A stretch of 34,205 nt of DNA, from the NCBI GenBank assembly GCA_013695475.1, contig JACDAJ010000023.1, forward strand, positions 1 to 34,205, read 5' to 3'. The DNA comes from Rubrobacter sp. GTDB lineage: Bacteria > Actinomycetota > Rubrobacteria > Rubrobacterales > Rubrobacteraceae. The notes under the pieces are model-generated. The model saw nothing but the letters and a program-made list of their open reading frames with translations, had not been told where the DNA came from and ran no database searches. This document shows, one piece after another, positions 1-34,205 of the stretch (its first letter is position 1; each line of letters starts with the position of its first letter). The position numbers and the translations under genes were made by a program.

Positions 1-2143
1 CGTGTGTCGCGCTCGCGGCCCGGAACGCGAAGCGGCTGAGAGCCGTCCGGTCTTCGATGGTGTCCACCCTCGCGGAGAGTATGCTCACGCTCGCGTCGGA
101 GATGACCGAGGTTATGTCGCGGAGGAGGTGCATCCGGTCGAGCGCCTCGACTTGAAGCTCGACGGTGAAGAGCTTCCCATTCTCCACCGACCACTCGACT
201 TCCACGAAGCGGTCCGGGTCGCGTCCGCGGAGGGCGCGGGCGTTCGCGCATCCCGCGTCGTGGACGACGACACCGCGCCCGAGCGAGACGTATCCCACTA
301 TTTCGTCGCCCGGCATCGGCGTGCAGCAACGGGCGAGCCTCGTCAAAATGCCGCTCGACCCGATCACACGCACACCCGTCTCGGTGTCGGCGCGGCCTTC
401 GCTGTCGTCCGGGAGCGGGAGCGGCGTGAGAGCGGGACTCCGGCTCTTCTTCTCCTCTTCCTCCGGCGGCTTGAGCCGCTCGGATACTCGGTGGACGACG
501 TTGTCCGCCGAGACGACCCCCGCGCCGACGGCGGTGAACATGTCCTCCGCGTCGTCGTGGTTGAGTTCCGCGGCGATGTCCTCGAAAACGCCGTTGGCGA
601 CCTTCCCGCCGCGCCGCTTTTTGAGGAGCGTCATGACCTTTTCCCGTCCGAGCGAGAGGTTGTCTTCGCGGTCGGCTTTGTTGAAGTATTGGCGGATCTT
701 GTTCCGGGCGCGACCGCTTTGGACGACGGTGAGCCAGTCGCGGCTCGGCGTGCCGTTCTTCCCGGTCAAAACTTCGATGCGGTCGCCCGAGACGATCTCC
801 GAGTCGAGTGGGACGATCCTCCCGTTCACCTTCGCCCCGATGGTGTGATGCCCGACCTCGGTATGGACGTGATACGCGAAATCTATCGGCGTCGCCCCCG
901 AAGGAAGGCTCACGACATCGCCCTTCGGCGTGAAAACGAAGACCTCGTCGGCGATGAGTTCGCCCTTCAGAGACTCCATGAAATCGGTCGCGTCGGTGGT
1001 TTCACGCTGCCACTCCATCATGCTCTTCAGCCACGTGAGGCGGTCAATGCCGTCCTGTTTCTTGCCTTCCTTGTACATCCAATGCGCCGCGATGCCATAG
1101 TCGGCGGTCGTGTCCATGTCGGAGGTGCGAATCTGGATTTCGAGGAGCTTCCCCTCGTTCGACATGACCGTCGTGTGGAGCGACTGGTACATATTGAATT
1201 TCGGCATCGCGATATAGTCTTTGAAACGGCCTGGAATCGGCTTCCAGATCGAGTGGATGACCCCGAGTACGCCGTAGCAATCTCGCACCGAATCCACGAC
1301 GACCCGGAGTCCGGCGAGGTCGTAAATCTCGTTGAATTCTTTGTTTCTTTGGATCATCTTGTTGTAAATCGAATAAAAATGCTTCACTCGGCCATGCACA
1401 TCGGCCTCGATGCTCGTCTCCCCGAGATGCGCTTTGAGTTCCTCTCCCGTCGTGTTTATGAACGACTCCCGGTCGTCCCGACGCGCCGCGACAAGCCGCT
1501 TTATCTCTTCATAACGCCGCGGATGGAGCGTCGCGAAAGCGAGATCCTCGAGTTCCCACTTCACCGAATAAATACCGAGCCGATGCGCGAGCGGCGCATA
1601 TATTTCAAGCGTCTCCGTCGCCTTTTTCAATTGCGTCTCGCGCTTCAAATACGCGAGGGTACGCATATTGTGGAGGCGGTCGGCGAGTTTGATGATTATG
1701 ACGCGGACATCGCGGCTCATGGCCACGATCATCTTCCGCAAACTTTCCGCCTGCGTGTCCTCGACGCTGTCGGACGGGAGCCGGGTGAGCTTTGTGACGC
1801 CGTCCACTATCTCGGCGACCGACTCGCCGAACTGCGCGGCTATCTCCTCTTTCTCGACCTCGGTGTCTTCGATGACATCGTGGAGGAGGGCGGAGGTTAT
1901 GGTCGTCGAGTCGAGCCGGAGATCCGCGCATATGTCCGCCGTCGCCAGCGGATGGTACACGAAGGGTTCGCCGGATCGTCGAGTTTGGCCTTTGTGGGCG
2001 TCGTGGGACATGCGGTACGCGCCCGAGATCATCTCCTCCGCACCTTCGGGGCTGTACGAGCGAACCTTCTCGAGGAGAGAAGAAATCGTAACGGGCGGAG
2101 CCGACACATCTTGCAAACGCTGTTCTGAACGGGCGATCTCCAT
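1..2143 (-). CDS. rsh: RelA/SpoT family (p)ppGpp synthetase/hydrolase, C-terminus cut by the window edge
   Basis: Reverse-strand reading from ATG at 2143 gives MEIARSEQRLQDVSAPPVTISSLLEKVRSYSPEGAEEMISGAYRMSHDAHKGQTRRSGEPFVYHPLATADICADLRLDSTTITSALLHDVIEDTE... (HD domain), then YNKMIQRNKEFNEIYDLAGLRVVVDSVRDCYGVLGVIHSIWKPIPGRFKDYIAMPKFNMYQSLHTTV (synthetase), TGS and the start of ACT. Absent from the ORF track because its stop is outside the window. Confidence 0.96.
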   Translation of the reverse strand, partial: MEIARSEQRLQDVSAPPVTISSLLEKVRSYSPEGAEEMISGAYRMSHDAHKGQTRRSGEPFVYHPLATADICADLRLDSTTITSALLHDVIEDTEVEKEEIAAQFGESVAEIVDGVTKLTRLPSDSVEDTQAESLRKMIVAMSRDVRVIIIKLADRLHNMRTLAYLKRETQLKKATETLEIYAPLAHRLGIYSVKWELEDLAFATLHPRRYEEIKRLVAARRDDRESFINTTGEELKAHLGETSIEADVHGRVKHFYSIYNKMIQRNKEFNEIYDLAGLRVVVDSVRDCYGVLGVIHSIWKPIPGRFKDYIAMPKFNMYQSLHTTVMSNEGKLLEIQIRTSDMDTTADYGIAAHWMYKEGKKQDGIDRLTWLKSMMEWQRETTDATDFMESLKGELIADEVFVFTPKGDVVSLPSGATPIDFAYHVHTEVGHHTIGAKVNGRIVPLDSEIVSGDRIEVLTGKNGTPSRDWLTVVQSGRARNKIRQYFNKADREDNLSLGREKVMTLLKKRRGGKVANGVFEDIAAELNHDDAEDMFTAVGAGVVSADNVVHRVSERLKPPEEEEKKSRSPALTPLPLPDDSEGRADTETGVRVIGSSGILTRLARCCTPMPGDEIVGYVSLGRGVVVHDAGCANARALRGRDPDRFVEVEWSVENGKLFTVELQVEALDRMHLLRDITSVISDASVSILSARVDTIEDRTALSRFAFRAASATH

Positions 2144-2150
2144 GCGGAAA

Positions 2151-2156
2151 ATTATA
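2151..2156 (-). promoter_or_regulatory. Candidate -10 hexamer (TATAAT) for rsh, 7 nt upstream of its ATG
   Basis: Minus strand reads TATAAT-TTTCCGC-ATGGAG; no Shine-Dalgarno-like sequence fits between; -35 is weak. Confidence 0.45.
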
Positions 2157-2345
2157 ACAGCCGCGATTTCGCGGGAGTCGGGAGCGCGGGTCGGCGCACT
2201 CGCCTTTCCCGACCCCCGAAGCCACGGGGCGTGGAGCCGTCCGCCCGGATCACGCACGAGCCGATCGAGAGTGGAAGCGAAGCATCGAAGAAGGAGCCGA
2301 GGACACCCCCGGCTCCCGGGATATTCCGGTTTCTGAAACCCGGCT

Positions 2346-2654
2346 TTAGTTTGGGAGCTTCGATGCGAGAACGTCGAGCTTCTCGATGGACGGCTCCTCG
2401 GAGAAGAGGTCGGGGGCGTTCGCCATGAGGGCTTCGGCGACGCGGCCCGAGAGGTGCGCGTCGCGGCCGGACTCGCCGGGGAAGGTGTCGAAGATGCCGA
2501 ATGTCGAGGAACCGAGCCTCACGCCGAACCACGTGTTCGTGTCCGGCTCCTCGTTGACGAGCGCGAGTCCGCCTTTCAGGAACTCCTCGACATCGCCCTC
2601 CTTGCCGGGCTTCGCCTCCATACGAACCCAGAGGCCCACGTTCACGTCAGCCAT
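2346..2654 (-). CDS. Antibiotic biosynthesis monooxygenase (ABM)-fold protein
   Basis: 102 aa MADVNVGLWVRMEAKPGKEGDVEEFLKGGLALVNEEPDTNTWFGVRLGSSTFGIFDTFPGESGRDAHLSGRVAEAL; typical ABM layout. Confidence 0.8.
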   Translation of the reverse strand: MADVNVGLWVRMEAKPGKEGDVEEFLKGGLALVNEEPDTNTWFGVRLGSSTFGIFDTFPGESGRDAHLSGRVAEALMANAPDLFSEEPSIEKLDVLASKLPN

Positions 2655-2707
2655 GCTTTCTCCTTCCGGTCGGTTTATCCGATTACGAGAGAGGGTCCGC
2701 TCGTGGA

Positions 2708-3121
2708 TCAGAACGCCTCGGCTGCGGCTTCGGCGACGGCGATGTCCTGTTCGCCGAGACCGCCGCTCACACCGACCGCTCCGACGACTTTGTCGTCTTT
2801 ATGGAGCGGGATGCCTCCGGCGAAGACCATGATCCGCCCTTCGTTCGAGGCTTGAATCCCATAAAATTGCTGGCCGGGCTGGGAGTTGTCGGCGAGGTCC
2901 TCTGTCGTTATGTCGAAGGCGCGAGCCGTGAAAGCCTTGTTTATCGAGACGTCCACGCTCCCGATCCACGCCCCGTCCATCCGCGCATGGGCGACGAGAT
3001 TCCCCCCGCCGTCCACAACCGCGATGTTCATCGGCTGCTCGATTTCGTTCGCCTTCGCCTCTCCGGCGGCGATGACGCGGCGCGCGCCTTCGAGCGAAAC
3101 ATTCTCTATTTGAATCGTCAT
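2708..3121 (-). CDS. GlcG/HbpS family heme-binding-like protein
   Basis: MTIQIENVSLEGARRVIAAGEAKANEIEQPMNIAVVDGGGNLVAHARMDGAWIGSVDVSINKAFTARAF...GGIPLHKDDKVVGAVGVSGG; characteristic GlcG/HbpS motifs. ORF track start is upstream; MTIQ preferred. Confidence 0.88.
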   Translation of the reverse strand: MTIQIENVSLEGARRVIAAGEAKANEIEQPMNIAVVDGGGNLVAHARMDGAWIGSVDVSINKAFTARAFDITTEDLADNSQPGQQFYGIQASNEGRIMVFAGGIPLHKDDKVVGAVGVSGGLGEQDIAVAEAAAEAF

Positions 3122-3307
3122 GGTGGTTCCTCCTTCGTGTACGTTTTTCGGGGTCTCACAGAGGGCTTCATTGCGGTGGCTCCAAGCTGCCGACGAATGA
3201 GGCTCGATTCCGCCACCCTCCATCCGGTACTGTATTCCCCGGCGCCCGAAACGCGAAACCCATGGAGCCGGATCGCGGATATGTCAATCCTCGCGCGAGA
3301 TCCGCTT

Positions 3308-4141
3308 TCATAGTATTTCCAACGGCTGTTTGCTGTTCGGGGCGGGAAACGCCTCGTCGAGGGCGGCGAGGCTCTCCTCCGGCAATTCGAGGTCGAGGGC
3401 GGCCCGATTCTCCCGGACGTGATCCTCCGTCCCGGCCTTCGGGATGGCGATGATGTCTTCCCGCCGGAATATCCACGCGAGCGCGGCCTGCGCCGGGGAG
3501 ACTCCGTGGGACTCGGCGACTTCTCCGAGCGCCTCGTCGCCGAGCATCCTTCCCTGTTCGATGGGCGAGTACGCCATCGCCGGAACGCCGCGCTCCCCGC
3601 ACCACGGAAGGAGATCGTACTCGACCCCCCGCCGAGTGAGGTTGTACAAAATCTGGTCGGTCTGCGCGGCATCCCCGCCCGGCAGCGAGGCGAGTTCTTC
3701 CATGTCCGACACGTCGAAATTGCTCACACCCCAATGGCGTATCTTCCCCGAATCCACAAGCTCCTCGAACGCCTCCATCGTCTCGTCGAGTGGATGCCGG
3801 CCGCGCCAATGGAGGAGATAAAGATCGAGGCGATCCGTGCCGAGCCGCTCCAGACTCCTCTCACACGCCTCTTTCGTCCCCTCCCGCGAAGCATTGCCCG
3901 GAAGGACTTTGCCGACGAGGAAAACCTCGTCGCGCCGACCTGAGATCGCCTCCCCGACGACCTCTTCCGCCCCGCCGTCGGCGTACATCTCGGCGGTGTC
4001 AACGAGCGTCATCCCGAGTTCGAGGCCGAGCCGGAGCGCGGCCACCTCGCCGCCGCGGCGCGAAGCGTCCTCGCCCCACCCCCACGTTCCCTGCCCGAGA
4101 GCGGGAACCTCCTCGCCGGACGGAAGCCTTATTTTCCGCAT
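3308..4141 (-). CDS. Aldo/keto reductase
   Basis: 277 aa with LGQGTWGWGEDASRRGGEVAALRLGLELGMTLVDTAEMYADGGAEEVVGEAI and IRHWGVSNFDVSDMEEL; AKR signature. Confidence 0.95.
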   Translation of the reverse strand: MRKIRLPSGEEVPALGQGTWGWGEDASRRGGEVAALRLGLELGMTLVDTAEMYADGGAEEVVGEAISGRRDEVFLVGKVLPGNASREGTKEACERSLERLGTDRLDLYLLHWRGRHPLDETMEAFEELVDSGKIRHWGVSNFDVSDMEELASLPGGDAAQTDQILYNLTRRGVEYDLLPWCGERGVPAMAYSPIEQGRMLGDEALGEVAESHGVSPAQAALAWIFRREDIIAIPKAGTEDHVRENRAALDLELPEESLAALDEAFPAPNSKQPLEIL

Positions 4142-4419
4142 GTCATCATCCTTTCCAAGCCGACGTCACATAGGATTACGCGGAGTGCGATCGGCCGCCA
4201 TCCCTTTTGCGATCGATCCGGCCTCTCCGCGGAGACGCGCCGATGGCGAGTCTTCGGAGCGCCCCGCCGAAACGTCCTTACGACAAAGCGGAGCCGTGAG
4301 CCGTAGCCGCGAGGCGAACAACGACCCCTTCTCCCGGACTCGGCGTGGCACGGACTTCGGTCGGAGATTTCGTGGCCTTCTTCATCCGGGACTCCCCGCC
4401 CCGGTAAGGTCAGTCGCGC

Positions 4420-4995
4420 CTACGCGCTGCGCGACTGCTCGCGGTGCTTCCCTTCGCCGATCTCCTCGACGACCTTCGCGCAAAACGCCGGGATATCGTC
4501 GGGATTGCGGCTCGTGACGAGTCCTTCGTCCACGACGACTTCCTCGTCCACCCAATTTCCGCCCGCGTTCCAAACGTCGGTCTGGAGCGTCGGGAACGAG
4601 GTGAGGGTGCGGCCGCGAACCACATCCGCCTCGACGAGCGTCCACGGGCCGTGGCAGATCACACCGACCGGCTTCGACTGCTCGAAGAACGACCGGATGA
4701 ACCCGACCGCCTCGGGGTTGCCGCGAAGCGTGTCCGCCCCGACCGTCCCACCCGGAACGACGAGTCCGTCGTAGTCGTCGGCGGAGACTTCGGAGAAAGT
4801 CTTGTCAACGGAGAACTTGTCGGCGAGGTTGATGTCGCCGTTCATCGCCTGCGCTTCGCCGGACTCGATGCTGATTACGTCCACGCTCGCTCCGGCGTTC
4901 TCGACCGCCTTCTTCGGCTCGGTGAACTCGACCTGTTCGGTTCCGGCCGGGGCTATGAGGATCGCAACTTTCTTTCCCTGCAATTCGTTCGCCAT
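4420..4995 (-). CDS. DJ-1/PfpI family protein (type 1 glutamine amidotransferase-like)
   Basis: MANELQGKKVAILIAPAGTEQVEFTEPKKAVENAGASVDVISIESGEAQAMNGDINLADKFSVDKTFSEVSADDYDGLVVPGG...PVGVICHGPWTLVEADVVRGRTLTS; nucleophile elbow VICHGPW. Confidence 0.94.
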   Translation of the reverse strand: MANELQGKKVAILIAPAGTEQVEFTEPKKAVENAGASVDVISIESGEAQAMNGDINLADKFSVDKTFSEVSADDYDGLVVPGGTVGADTLRGNPEAVGFIRSFFEQSKPVGVICHGPWTLVEADVVRGRTLTSFPTLQTDVWNAGGNWVDEEVVVDEGLVTSRNPDDIPAFCAKVVEEIGEGKHREQSRSA

Positions 4996-5181
4996 GAACG
5001 GCTCCTTTCGACGATTCCGGCTGCGGGGATTCGTTACCCGCATTGGGGGAGCGACGAATCACGATAGCGTGACCGGAATCGAAATTGGCCCGAAAGGTGC
5101 ATGTGGCTTCGCTTTGCTTCGCGCTTGTCAGCCTGTCACAGCGAGTTGCTTGTAGATTGAGCCTCGTGGATACTTCCGAGC

Positions 5182-6137
5182 ATGAAACCGTATTCGAAGG
5201 ATCTCAGGCTCAAGGTGTTGAATGCAGTCGATCGCGGCATGGATCGCAGGGAGGTCGCCGGGGTTCTCGGCGTCTCGCTTGCCTCCATAAAACGCTGGCT
5301 GAAGATGAGGAGGGAGCGCGGGGATGTACAGGCGCGCCCGACCCCCGGCCCTCCGGCGAGGAAGAGGGCGGCGCTCTTGGAGTGGCTCCCCTCCCAACTC
5401 GAGGACAATCCCGACCTCACGCTCGACGAACACTGCGAAGCGTTCGAGGAGGACTCGGGGGTGAAAGTGTCGAGGGCTACGATGTGCCGCGCCATACCGC
5501 GCCTTCCGGGCGGCTGGCCGCTCAAAAAAAGTCTCCCATAGCCTCCGAGCGCGACGAGGAGAAGCGCTCTCTATGGAAATGGCTGGCTTCCCGTTTCGAC
5601 GCGAGAAGGCTCGTGTTCGTGGACGAGAGCGGCTTCCAAATCTCGATGATGCGGCTCAGATCGCGTGCGCCGAGGGGAAAGCGGGCATACGGCACGGTTC
5701 CGAGGAACCGCGGCAGGAACCAGACGCTCATCGCCTCGATGACCCTCGAAGGGGGCATGGGCGCGTGCATGTGCGTGGCGGGGAGCACGGACGCCCCGGT
5801 GTTCGAGGCTTATGTGGAGAAGGCGCTCGCGCCTAACCTCGTCGAGGGTCAGGTGGTGGCCCTTGACAATCTGGGGGCGCGCCAGCCGGCCAGGGTGCGC
5901 GAACTCATCGGGGCGCGTGGTTGCGAGCTTGTGTACTTGCCGTCGTACTCGCCGGATTTGAACCCGATAGAAGAAGCGTTCTCGAAGATAAAGAACATCG
6001 TCAGGAAGGCCGGGGAGCGCACTCGGGAGGCATTGAACCGAGCCATAGCCGAGGCGCTCGGGGCGGTCACTTTGCACGACGTGGCGGGATGGTTCGCGCA
6101 CTGCGGCTGCTGCGAGTCGCGGGGTCAATACTTATGA
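5182..6137 (+). CDS. IS630-family transposase made by -1 frameshift (orfA 5182-5541, orfB in the overlapping frame to 6137)
   Basis: orfA MKPYSKDLRLKVLNAVDRGMDRREVAGVLGVSLASIKRWLKM (HTH) ends ...GGWPLKKSLP*; -1 frame continues KKSPIASERDEEKRSLWKWLASRFDARRLVFVDESGFQ...VALDNLGARQ...LPSYSPDLNPIEEAFSKIK (DDE). A7 run at 5524-5530. Confidence 0.88.
5524..5530 (+). promoter_or_regulatory. A7 slippery run, probable -1 frameshift site of the IS630 transposase
   Basis: CTC AAA AAA AGT in frame 0; -1 slip gives AAG TCT CCC ATA joining orfA to orfB without loss of homology. Confidence 0.7.
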
Positions 6138-6146
6138 ACTTCGCTG

Positions 6147-6587
6147 TCAGTCCTCCATGCCGGTTCCGGCGCTTTGATGCACGATAGTCTGGCGCTCGGG
6201 GACGATCCACATCATCACCCGCTCGCTTTTTATGTTGTTCGGCGGATAATCCTCCCCGGTGTACTTCCGGGCGAGTTCGTCTATGTGGTCGCGGGCTTCC
6301 TGCCCCGTCACGGTCTCGACGACGCGGCCGCGGGTCTCGGCGTACCGGTACGGGTCGCTCTCGTCACGGATGGTGAGCGTGATGCGCGGGTCGCTCTGGA
6401 TATTCGTGTGCTTTTTGCGATGAACCTCAGTGTTCACCACGAGGCGCTCGCCGTCGGTGTCAACCCAAATAAGGTGCGTCTGCAAATGCCCGCTCGGAAA
6501 CACCGTCGTGATCGAGCCGTAATTCACCCCCCGCGCCAACTCGACCGTGTCCGGATGAAGCTCTGGGCCATTCCTCGTGTCCGCCAT
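6147..6587 (-). CDS. Pyridoxamine 5'-phosphate oxidase (PPOX)-class protein
   Basis: 146 aa MADTRNGPELHPDTVELARGVNYGSITTVFPSGHLQTHLIWVDTDGERLVVNTEVHRKKHTNIQSDPRITLTIRDESDPYRYAETRGRVVE; classic PPOX pattern. Confidence 0.88.
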   Translation of the reverse strand: MADTRNGPELHPDTVELARGVNYGSITTVFPSGHLQTHLIWVDTDGERLVVNTEVHRKKHTNIQSDPRITLTIRDESDPYRYAETRGRVVETVTGQEARDHIDELARKYTGEDYPPNNIKSERVMMWIVPERQTIVHQSAGTGMED

Positions 6588-6649
6588 GTCGTTCCTCCTC
6601 TTTCGCTTTTCGTCGCTTCTCGCCGTAAAACCGTTTTATCCCCGTCGTC

Positions 6650-7254
6650 TCAAAGCCGTATATAACCCGCCTTCTTCGCCCACTCGCTCTCGGGGAAACC
6701 GTCGAGGAGCGGCTCCCACCCCCCGGTGAGATCCCCACGGTCGCCCGACACCTCGAACGCGGCGACCGCCTTCCAATAAAGCGACTCCGGCTCGCGGTTC
6801 GGGTCGCCCGCCGTGTTTTCGAGGGCTTCCCCGGCAAGCCCGACCGCCGCCTCATACTCATGTCCGTCGAGGGCGGCTATGAGACGGGCGAGCGAAAGCT
6901 CACCGATGAAACGCCGCACATCGAGGTATCCCTGGCTGCGGCGATGCTCCGGCCATCCGCGTCCTCGAAGATGAGCGTCGGAGTCCACCCGGACGAGAAG
7001 CCCGCCTCGACCCTCGGCTCTTCGATGGTATTGAAACGAACCGGGGCGAAGTGGCTTTCGAGAAACGACTTCGCCGCCTCGTCGGGATACGTCCTCTCGC
7101 CCATCGTCTTCGAGCCGCCGCATTTGTGGTGCCACAGATAAACGAGGACGAGCCTCCCGTCGCGCCGAGCCTCCTCCCGCGCTTCTTCGAGGGACGACCG
7201 CCACGAGATGTTCGGGGCGGAGCCTATGGGCGGCTCGGTGTTTTTCTGCGTCAA
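6650..7254 (-). pseudogene. Thioredoxin-fold protein with a frame disruption near 6935-6942
   Basis: Frame 1: LTQKNTEPPIGSAPNISWRSSLEEAREEARRDGRLVLVYLWHHKCGGSKTMGERTYPDEAAKSFLESHFAPVRFNTIEEPRVEAGFSSGWTPTLIFEDADGRSIAAA; frame 2: GYLDVRRFIGELSLARLIAALDGHEYEAAVGLAGEALENTAGDPNREPESLYWKAVAAFEV... Together they make one protein. Start proposed as TTG at 7254. Confidence 0.65.
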
Positions 7255-31844: not shown

Positions 31845-32126
31845 TCACCCGTAAATCCCTTGCCGATGACCGACATCGAGGATAAACACAGTGCCGAACG
31901 AATCGCCCGATTCCCCGGCCTCCGGCTCCTCGACGAAGTATATGATCCGGTAATCCCCGACGCGAAGCCTCCGGTTCTCCGTGTTTTGGAGAATGCGACT
32001 GTTTCGAGGATACGGGTCTTCGGCAAGGGCGGCGAGAGCTTCCCGGATGCGTTCCGCATGGTCGGGGCGGACTCGCTTTTTGAGGGCCTTCTCCGCCGCC
32101 CGCTCGAAAACGAGCCGATACGCCAT
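31845..32126 (-). CDS. RelE/ParE superfamily toxin
   Basis: MAYRLVFERAAEKALKKRVRPDHAERIREALAALAEDPYPRNSRILQNTENRRLRVGDYRIIYFVEEPEAGESGDSFGTVFILDVGHRQGIYG; RLRVGDYRIIY motif. Confidence 0.93.
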   Translation of the reverse strand: MAYRLVFERAAEKALKKRVRPDHAERIREALAALAEDPYPRNSRILQNTENRRLRVGDYRIIYFVEEPEAGESGDSFGTVFILDVGHRQGIYG

Positions 32127-32131
32127 GCGAA

Positions 32132-32380
32132 TTAACGTCCGTTTCCGGGCGTAAGGTCGGGAGCCTCGTCCGGAGCTTCGTACTCCGAGCCGATCGAGTC
32201 CCGCACCTCCTCCCACGGGAGAAACTCCGCCTCGCCACGGCGCATCCTCTCGCGCGCCTCCTCGGCGAGTCGGAGGTCTTCGAGCTCCTCCGCCGCGCCC
32301 ACGAGCCGCTCGTACTCCTCGACGGTGAGGATCACACGCCTCCGGTTTCCCGCCTTGTCCACTATGAACTCCACCGCCAT
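32132..32380 (-). CDS. Antitoxin of the RelE-type toxin (RelB/Phd-like)
   Basis: [70 protein letters not shown]; 5 nt upstream of the toxin start. Confidence 0.88.
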
Positions 32381-32556: not shown

Positions 32557-32952
32557 CTAGCTTTTCGGACTCGACACGGCTCGGGAAAACAGCACGACTC
32601 CCCCGATATTCTCGTCGTCCATGAGGTATGTTCCCATCGCCTCCATCACGCGGTATGTTCCGTCCGAACACCGGAAGCGGTACACCGCCCGGTTCGACAC
32701 CGGGCCGGAGAATTCAGCCGAACTCTCCAAAGCGGCCTCGGTCTCGCGGGCGATGCGGTCTATGTCGCCCCGGTGGACGCACTCCATGATATTGCTCCCG
32801 AGCACCCGCTCGACCTCCCACCCGTACGTGTCGCGGAAGGCCGGGTTCGCGTATGTGAGGGTTCCGTCCGGGAGGCAGACTTTCACCACCTCGGCGGTCT
32901 TCTCGACTATGGATCTGAAAAATCCCTCGTCCCACTCCGGCGTCTCCGGCAC
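32557..32952 (-). CDS. Stand-alone PAS-domain protein, possibly truncated
   Basis: GTG start; MPETPEWDEGFFRSIVEKTAEVVKVCLPDGTLTYANPAFRDTYGWEVERVLGSNIMECVHRGDIDRIARETEAALESSAEFSGPVSNRAVYRFRCSDGTYRVMEAMGTYLMDDENIGGVVLFSRAVSSPKS. Confidence 0.85.
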   Translation of the reverse strand: MPETPEWDEGFFRSIVEKTAEVVKVCLPDGTLTYANPAFRDTYGWEVERVLGSNIMECVHRGDIDRIARETEAALESSAEFSGPVSNRAVYRFRCSDGTYRVMEAMGTYLMDDENIGGVVLFSRAVSSPKS

Positions 32953-33023
32953 GTAAACTCCTTCGTTTTCTGATTTTCATCGGCTTCTCGCTCCCGAAAT
33001 GTGAATACTAAATCATCTCCCCG

Positions 33024-33072
33024 CCGCGAACCGGGAGTCGCGAATCGGGGAAATGCGACTCGCTATTCGCGG
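33024..33072. repeat. Imperfect inverted repeat (hairpin)
   Basis: CCGCGAAccggGAGTCGC - gaatcggggaaat - GCGACTCgctaTTCGCGG; two 7-bp helices. Confidence 0.65.
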
Positions 33073-33092
33073 CGAAGCATCCACGCTCCGGG

Positions 33093-33262
33093 CTACGCTT
33101 CGCCCCTCCCGGAACGCTCCACGTTGAGCGCGAGAAGCTCTTTGAGAATGTCGTCGTCGGTGATGGAGTCCGTCCCCGTACGCCTCGAACACGGCTTCGT
33201 CGAAGGCGCGGGGCGCGTTCTCGAGCCACCCTCCGTCGTGTATGGTGTGGGGATTGTGGAGC
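33093..33262 (-). pseudogene. Frameshifted C-terminal remnant of a type II/BREX-like DNA methyltransferase
   Basis: One frame: DGGWLENAPRAFDEAVFEAYG; other frame: DSITDDDILKELLALNVERSGRGEA*. Together they match the LDxAVFxAYGWPxxxSDEDILxxLLALNxER tail of large class I DNA MTases. Confidence 0.7.
33116..33216. repeat. Direct repeat copy 1 (about 100 bp)
   Basis: GCTCCACGTTGAGCGCGAGAAGCTCTTTGAGAATGTCGTCGTCGG...CCCGTACGCCTCGAACACGGCTTCGTCGAAGGCGCGGGGCG; matches 34091-34192. Confidence 0.85.
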
Positions 33263-33266
33263 GGAT

Positions 33267-33716
33267 ATGGCGGTGGATGAAGTCGGTCTCGAAGTGAGCG
33301 GCGATTCGGAGCTTCGCGCAAGGCGTTTGGAGCAGTTGCGGGCGATGTCTTCGGAAGAATTGGACGAGTGCATACGTCGCATGCGCCTTGAACAGGATCT
33401 TCCGGAATTGCTGTACCATTTTCGGACGCACCGCGCCGAGTTCGACGCCGATACTCCGGAGGCATATCATGCTCTTTTCAAGGAACACATCCGCAGAGAC
33501 GGCCTGATATTTCTCACGTACATCCGACCGAGGGGTTCGGCCACGATGTGGCACCTCGTGGATTTGGATCTCGGCAACGTCGCGCAGTATAATGAAACCC
33601 GGCGAGAGTATTGGAGTTTCTTCAGGCCGAGAAACCTCGATAGCTTCGTGGAGGCGAGTTTGAGGCGTTCGGTGGAAGTCCGCCGCGCGACGTCGGGTTG
33701 GGAGACGCTGGCATAG
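33267..33716 (+). CDS. Hypothetical protein, first gene of an unrecognised two-gene cassette
   Basis: 149 aa MAVDEVGLEVSGDSELRARRLEQLRAMSSEELDECIRRMRLEQDLPELLYHFRTHRAEFDADTPEAYHALFKEHIRRDGLIFLTYIRPRGSATMWHLVDLDLGNVAQYNETRREYWSFFRPRNLDSFVEASL. No family recognised. Confidence 0.75.
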   Translation: MAVDEVGLEVSGDSELRARRLEQLRAMSSEELDECIRRMRLEQDLPELLYHFRTHRAEFDADTPEAYHALFKEHIRRDGLIFLTYIRPRGSATMWHLVDLDLGNVAQYNETRREYWSFFRPRNLDSFVEASLRRSVEVRRATSGWETLA

Positions 33717-34027
33717 TGGCTTACATAGACACCCCCGAAGGCAAGCTCCATCAATACGAAATCTACGTCACCGAGGCGTTGGACGACCTCGACCGCTCCG
33801 ACACGAATTCCCTGCTCGCCTTGACCTTGCGGGACGACATCGAGGATCACCTCGGCGACTTCGACCCTCCGGGGCTTGGCAAACTGCGAAATCTGGATTC
33901 CATCCTCGCAAAGAAACACGAAATCGTCTCGGAGGTTTTGCCAAACCCCGCCGAGACGGACCGCCGCCGATGGTGGTGGTTTTTGCACGAAGGCCCGCAC
34001 GTCCGCCAAGAAAGGCAGTCAGCCTAA
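33716..34027 (+). CDS. Hypothetical protein, second gene of the cassette
   Basis: GTG start overlapping the previous stop (TAGTG); VAYIDTPEGKLHQYEIYVTEALDDLDRSDTNSLLALTLRDDIEDHLGDFDPPGLGKLRNLDSILAKKHEIVSEVLPNPAETDRRRWWWFLHEGPHVRQERQSA. Confidence 0.75.
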   Translation: MAYIDTPEGKLHQYEIYVTEALDDLDRSDTNSLLALTLRDDIEDHLGDFDPPGLGKLRNLDSILAKKHEIVSEVLPNPAETDRRRWWWFLHEGPHVRQERQSA

Positions 34028-34070
34028 AACTCGCCGCCGTTCCGAAGACATCCGATGCCCCGCTCCGCCT

Positions 34071-34194
34071 TCACCGCCCGCTTTCCGCCCGCTCCATATT
34101 CAACGCGAGAAGCTCTTTGAGAATATCCTCGTCGGAAATTCCGTCCGGCCACCCGTACGCCTCGAAGACGGCTTCGTCGAGGGCGCGGGGCGGT
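34071..34194 (-). pseudogene. C-terminal fragment of a DNA methyltransferase (second copy), in-frame stop just upstream
   Basis: PPRALDEAVFEAYGWPDGISDEDILKELLALNMERAESGR*; reading upstream on the minus strand gives TCC GCC GGA TAA, an in-frame stop, so the intact gene is not continuous here. Confidence 0.65.
34091..34192. repeat. Direct repeat copy 2 (about 100 bp)
   Basis: GCTCCATATTCAACGCGAGAAGCTCTTTGAGAATATCCTCGTCGG...CCCGTACGCCTCGAAGACGGCTTCGTCGAGGGCGCGGGGCG; matches 33116-33216. Confidence 0.85.
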
Positions 34195-34205
34195 TATCCG
34201 GCGGA

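Follow-up and report, generated by a model that had tools for sequence, protein, structure and literature searches.

A putative orphan toxin-immunity cassette between relics of MmeI-like methyltransferase genes in Rubrobacter sp.

The window analysed here is the whole of contig JACDAJ010000023.1 (C64; 34,205 bp) of Rubrobacter sp., from a genome (G000) of 318 contigs that is 92% complete. At its right-hand end, which stops at position 34205, two small genes (gene 1 and gene 2) lie between direct repeats, together with the features collected in Table 1. The two open reading frames (ORFs) overlap in TAGTG, where the TAG stop and the GTG start have one G in common, and gene 1 is preceded by a GGAG Shine-Dalgarno-like sequence at 33258-33261. 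The repeats pair 33115-33175 with 34090-34150 (80%) and 33175-33215 with 34152-34192 (95%). Two coupled ORFs between direct repeats of about 100 bp had been described in the initial annotation, and both coordinates and alignment confirmed this layout. Genome searches covered samples of genomes, and the assembly is a draft in which the contig ends inside the repeat array.

Table 1. Features at the right-hand end of the window.
Feature	Position	Strand	Description
Gene 1	33267..33716	+	149 aa; predicted RNase toxin domain of BECR fold (like CdiA-CT 8ey4 / colicin D), standing alone
Gene 2	33716..34027	+	103 aa, acidic, predicted all-helical; likely cognate immunity (antitoxin) protein
Left repeat	33093..33229	-	Relic of an MmeI-like methyltransferase 3' end; homology from codon ~882 of the C222 protein; 2-bp deletion
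Right repeat	34071..34192	-	Relic of an MmeI-like methyltransferase 3' end; homology from codon ~888 of the C222 protein
Contig-end bases TCCGCCGGATAAC (S-A-G-stop)	34193..34205	-	Match the G001 DUF2283 gene exactly at its 3' end
PAS-like gene, adjoining the array	32557..32952	-	PAS name read from sequence; G001 orthologue lies beside the methyltransferase
Toxin (ParE type) of an adjacent toxin-antitoxin pair	31845..32216	-	PF05016, E 1.3e-8
Antitoxin of the ParE pair (RelB/Phd-like)	32132..32380	-	PF18506 (1.2e-4) and PF02604 (3.9e-4), both under the curated cut-off

Searches of Pfam, NCBIfam, PHROGs and PADLOC gave no significant match for either gene product. The initial annotation had recognised no family in either protein, a view that the analysis of gene 1 overturned. 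The AlphaFold (AF2) models of the two products were built on two-sequence alignments, and that of gene 1 (pLDDT 75, pTM 0.73) consists of N-terminal helices followed by a four-stranded meander (H64-75 E81-86 E93-99 E104-109 E117-119). The BECR layout has been defined as helices followed by four strands, with a conserved S/T in strand 4 (PMC3482391). Across the three members of the gene 1 family, H51 and H55 are invariant in the helical part and position 117, in strand 4, is S, S or T. Colicin D led the Foldseek list of PDB matches (5 of the 15 top matches, probability up to 0.89), with weak E-values (best 0.16). In hhalign, a profile of the three members matched L094, an unannotated protein from a phage collection, with an E-value of 1.2e-7 and a score of 48.7, against a maximum of 19.8 among 150 shuffles; L094 in turn matched the CdiA-CT toxin 8ey4_A (E 2e-11). 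A direct hhalign comparison of the gene 1 family with 8ey4 was weak (E 0.012-0.017), and the stronger link runs only through L094. The pattern H-x3-H, Y, T, G, N, F, P is common to all five aligned sequences (the three family members, L094 and 8ey4_A). Because the predicted fold, the active-site pattern and the profile match leading to 8ey4 agree, gene 1 most likely encodes a BECR-fold toxin domain with putative RNase activity. Most of the BECR CdiA-CT toxins studied cut tRNA (PMC9086364), and by analogy the target of gene 1 is probably tRNA. The ratio of non-synonymous to synonymous substitutions (dN/dS) of gene 1, ~0.43, indicates purifying selection. Apart from the L094 toxin domain leading to 8ey4, no true relative of gene 1 or gene 2 emerged from the first contig scan or from the viral, phage and plasmid searches; one phage candidate (H25) was dismissed as it is located in a TadC-like protein.

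The product of gene 2 is acidic (pI 4.8) and its model is all-alpha (pLDDT 72.5); the fold search returned no match, and no DNA-binding family was found among the databases searched. In all three genomes that carry it, the gene lies directly downstream of or overlaps gene 1, and a WWW motif is invariant in its product. A dN of 0.51 with saturated dS shows that selection retains the protein. Apparent viral matches (L083 and L084) were rejected as out-of-frame readings of another gene, and a match in G303 was set aside because it is located on a peptidase-like gene. The immunity proteins of BECR CdiA-CT toxins differ in fold, and one is fully helical (PMC9086364). Gene 2 is likely the immunity protein of gene 1, whose activity it would neutralise.

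Order and spacing of the two genes are unchanged in three genomes, namely that of the window, that of R. taiwanensis (G011), which the genome tool placed in the same family and which is the closest named relative with the pair, and G286, from a different, more distant family. In R. taiwanensis, residues 173-306 of a 310-aa protein match gene 1 at about 38-39% identity, the front of the protein matches phrog_2468 (E 7.6e-13), a MuF head-morphogenesis domain, here truncated N-terminally, and a homologue of gene 2 comes next. The pair in G286 stands alone and overlaps (gene 1 match, E 2.5e-14), and no N-terminal MuF domain was found in the gene 1 protein of the window. The two ORFs are thus conserved as a pair, as the initial annotation had proposed to check. 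Recurrence beside methyltransferases, which it had also proposed to test, is not seen, as the R. taiwanensis pair lies beside a CRISPR-like array and that of G286 among metabolic genes. The array in R. taiwanensis (L010, G011:C7, 1-1114) is immediately upstream of the MuF-toxin gene.

On the minus strand, both window repeats encode the last ~40 codons of an MmeI-like (type IIL) methyltransferase. The right repeat reads PRALDEAVFEAYGWPDGISDEDILKELLALNMERAESGR followed by a stop, while the left is readable only after correction of a 2-bp frameshift, as WLENAPRAFDEAVFEAYG / DSITDDDILKELLALNVER. Neither is joined to a methyltransferase body, and nuclease, methyltransferase and TRD domains are absent from the window, which holds 3'-end relics only. 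A full MmeI-like gene turned up only once in the genome, on contig C222 (L003) behind ruvC-ruvA-ruvB, where it has a third tail of its own; its MmeI_Mtase (4.4e-30), MmeI_hel, MmeI_N and MmeI_TRD matches are above the Pfam cut-offs and MmeI_C is just below. The initial annotation was therefore right to read a methyltransferase tail in the repeats, which recurs on this full gene; its placing of the cassette at the 3' end of a methyltransferase gene is wrong or unsupported.

The left and right repeats are 84.5% identical over 103 aligned bases, and over ~100 bp they are 83.9% and 82.1% identical, respectively, to the C222 tail. They thus resemble the C222 tail about as closely as each other, and did not arise by a recent duplication of a target site; duplication by cassette insertion would make left and right most alike, unless it were old. 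The proposal that an insertion had duplicated the methyltransferase end is thus not borne out, the left/right value being similar to left/C222 and well below the 92.4% between the right repeat and the methyltransferase tail of G001, a genome of the same genus (about 92-93.5% across comparisons). Since the window is a whole contig, the upstream side of the right repeat ends after 13 bases. This 13-mer occurs once in G000, in the window, and once in G001, at the end of a DUF2283 gene (DUF2283, E 2.8e-18). That the right repeat might terminate an intact methyltransferase resident at the locus was dropped on this evidence: the repeat's upstream edge equals the 3' terminus of the DUF2283 gene, and this repeat is therefore truncated as well. 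Thus both repeats are truncated relics of different methyltransferase alleles. Tails like them occur in related genomes, which is more than chance would give. Neither observation that the initial annotation named as refuting, ORFs never conserved as a pair or repeats due to an assembly artefact, was borne out.

In G001, contig C34 carries an orthologue of the PAS-like gene (82% DNA identity) beside a methyltransferase with a tail 93.5% identical to the right repeat; the DUF2283 gene and a second small ORF lie between the two, and the cassette and left relic are absent. The order in relatives is ruvCAB, methyltransferase, small genes, APP1 and ilvD, each genome showing part of it (L064, L069, L070, L072), and from this order we infer that C222 would adjoin the right end of C64. 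The C222 methyltransferase (L003, 2517-5267) and that of G001 (L030, 1964-3157, and G001:C24) are 81-83% identical in the N-terminal part and 66% in the C-terminal half, which suggests that the specificity half may have been exchanged. The neighbours of the window pair (methyltransferase relics, PAS, the ParE pair, APP1 and ilvD) do not form a prophage setting. In two further loci, L065 (G035:C411, 1049-3620) and L068 (G017, 919-6901), an MmeI-like gene or relic neighbours an XRE-like regulator and an integrase of the tyrosine type, which adjoins tRNA-Leu or tRNA-Arg/His; there the methyltransferase appears to be cargo of tRNA-integrated elements.

The tail-cassette arrangement recurs in a second genus. 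Contig C284 of G008 (L031) holds three MmeI tails in one orientation (3069-3193, 4036-4116 and 4799-4923). The interval between the second and third holds a PIN_3 toxin (2.3e-9) and an RHH-like antitoxin (under the Pfam cut-off), and that between the first and second a dodecin gene and an apparent PIN remnant. All four array relics start within the last 5% of the methyltransferase gene, three of them at about codons 882, 883 and 888 of ~927. Beyond the window and G008, no further tail arrays were found among the 396 genomes of the phylum searched. In a control search with the whole methyltransferase, N-terminal fragments turned up in other genomes, which shows that decay of this gene is widespread, although the array relics keep to its extreme 3' end; N-terminal MmeI-like pieces of ~172-196 codons with a similar stop point lie at G015:C183:7464-7982, G025:C377:3385-3933 and G029:C55:10191-10778.

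We consider, with a probability of about three in four, that genes 1 and 2 form an orphan toxin-immunity cassette of the polymorphic-toxin type in a locus of serial methyltransferase replacement. Gene 1 would be a BECR endoribonuclease domain, probably tRNA-cutting, that acts via H51, H55, T84 and S117, and gene 2 would bind it and block its activity. The toxin domain would be drawn from a pool whose members are also carried by MuF head proteins of phages, the carrier having been lost here and the domain having its own start and Shine-Dalgarno sequence. As a carrier or delivery domain is absent, the pair is expected to act within its own cell as a toxin-antitoxin-like addiction or growth-arrest module; alternatively, it could be a stored module giving immunity against MuF phages with the same toxin. 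In the variable stretch between the MmeI-like methyltransferase and APP1/ilvD, methyltransferase alleles and small toxin cassettes would have been swapped repeatedly, with the final 90-150 bp of the older methyltransferase remaining after every exchange, and the two flanking repeats would be two such leftovers. Of the origins suggested in the initial annotation, recombination between tandem methyltransferases survives in modified form: both repeats are relics, and repeated recombination with more than one allele fits best. A broader proposal, that the last ~120-150 bp of MmeI-like genes are a recurrent capture point for toxin-immunity and toxin-antitoxin cassettes, with a displaced methyltransferase tail remaining from every event, so that the growing array records past restriction-modification alleles, we regard as speculative and rather doubtful.

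Several observations weigh against the cassette interpretation. The gene 1 protein of the window is not basic (pI 5.6), whereas the R. taiwanensis domain has a pI of 11.1; the Foldseek E-values are weak and the link to 8ey4 is transitive. The pair is known from three loci only, and C222 and C64 are separate contigs in the assembly. A complete DUF2283 gene was not found in G000 beyond the contig edge. Finally, relics of other methyltransferase parts exist in the family, and plain gene decay therefore explains part of the pattern.

The strongest rival, which we nevertheless hold to be improbable, is that the cassette is a minimal mobile element integrating site-specifically at the 3' ends of MmeI-like genes and displacing the old end, with the repeats as att sites. 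The direct repeats are indeed gene 3' ends, homology begins at nearly the same codons in three of the four array relics, and G008 shows the succession tail-cassette-tail-cassette-tail; however, there is no recombinase gene between the repeats, they are only 84.5% identical rather than near-identical, no intact target gene is joined to either, and methyltransferase tails are absent around the pair in both R. taiwanensis and G286. That integrases attach at the end of the methyltransferase gene was likewise rejected, since the tyrosine integrases near the MmeI-like genes of relatives (G017 and G035) adjoin tRNA genes instead. Still less probable is a type II toxin-antitoxin module of the classical addiction type, with no relation to polymorphic toxins. 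The genes are small and overlapping and lie in a stretch that contains a ParE pair here and PIN and RHH pairs in relatives, and BECR takes in RelE/ParE (PMC9086364). Yet the toxin gene comes first, gene 2 matched no DNA-binding family in the databases searched, the homologue of gene 1 is a MuF C-terminal domain, and the gene 1 pattern fits CdiA-CT 8ey4 and not RelE. Equally hard to sustain is a dead remnant of a prophage or methyltransferase island with little or no expression, as suggested by the surrounding pseudogene pieces and the likewise truncated MuF part in R. taiwanensis, because both frames are intact with dN below dS, gene 1 has its own Shine-Dalgarno-like sequence, and a stand-alone pair is conserved in the distant family of G286. 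The earlier suggestion of a small defence, toxin-antitoxin or mobile cassette holds as far as a conserved toxin-antitoxin-like pair is concerned; the PADLOC defence-system models had no match for the window pair, and there is no recombinase between the repeats.

Among known systems, the orphan cassette most resembles the BECR tRNases of the CdiA-CT 8ey4 (PT-VENN) and colicin D type, with which gene 1 has H-x3-H, T, G, N and [ST]xFxP in common, along with helices preceding a four-stranded sheet and an immunity gene directly downstream. It differs in having no CdiA, colicin or other delivery part, in a sequence link that passes through an intermediate, and in RNase activity that is putative here. 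In the MuF phage polymorphic toxins (Jamet et al. 2017, PMC5576092; Zhang et al. 2012, PMC3482391), 89.4% of toxin genes have a small downstream gene; the R. taiwanensis homologue is likewise on a MuF domain with a small gene downstream, whereas gene 1 of the window has no MuF domain and lies outside a prophage. The orphan toxin-immunity modules of CDI/Rhs loci (PMC4927057) are alike as stand-alone pairs left beside an allele-replacement locus, but here an MmeI-like methyltransferase, rather than the carrier of the toxin, is the constant gene, and its tails form the scars. With MmeI / type IIL restriction-modification systems the window shares the C-terminal end of the family in both repeats, the full gene being on C222.

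Two further features lie close to the array. The ParE/RelB-like pair (31845-32380) lies in the variable stretch that separates the methyltransferase from APP1. An imperfect hairpin (33022-33074), with 20-nt arms of 85% complementarity and a loop of 13 nt, separates the left relic from the PAS-like gene and is possibly a terminator or a small mobile repeat.

The pair thus adds a previously unrecognised, predicted BECR-type toxin and a likely new immunity family, both of them unmatched in Pfam, NCBIfam, PHROGs and PADLOC. Through the toxin family, cassettes standing alone on the chromosomes of Rubrobacter-like bacteria and of one more distantly related genome are connected with the toxins of MuF phages. 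How methyltransferase alleles turned over, coupled to toxin cassettes, may be read from the relic tails, and the coupling of restriction-modification replacement and toxin capture as one event would thereby become testable.
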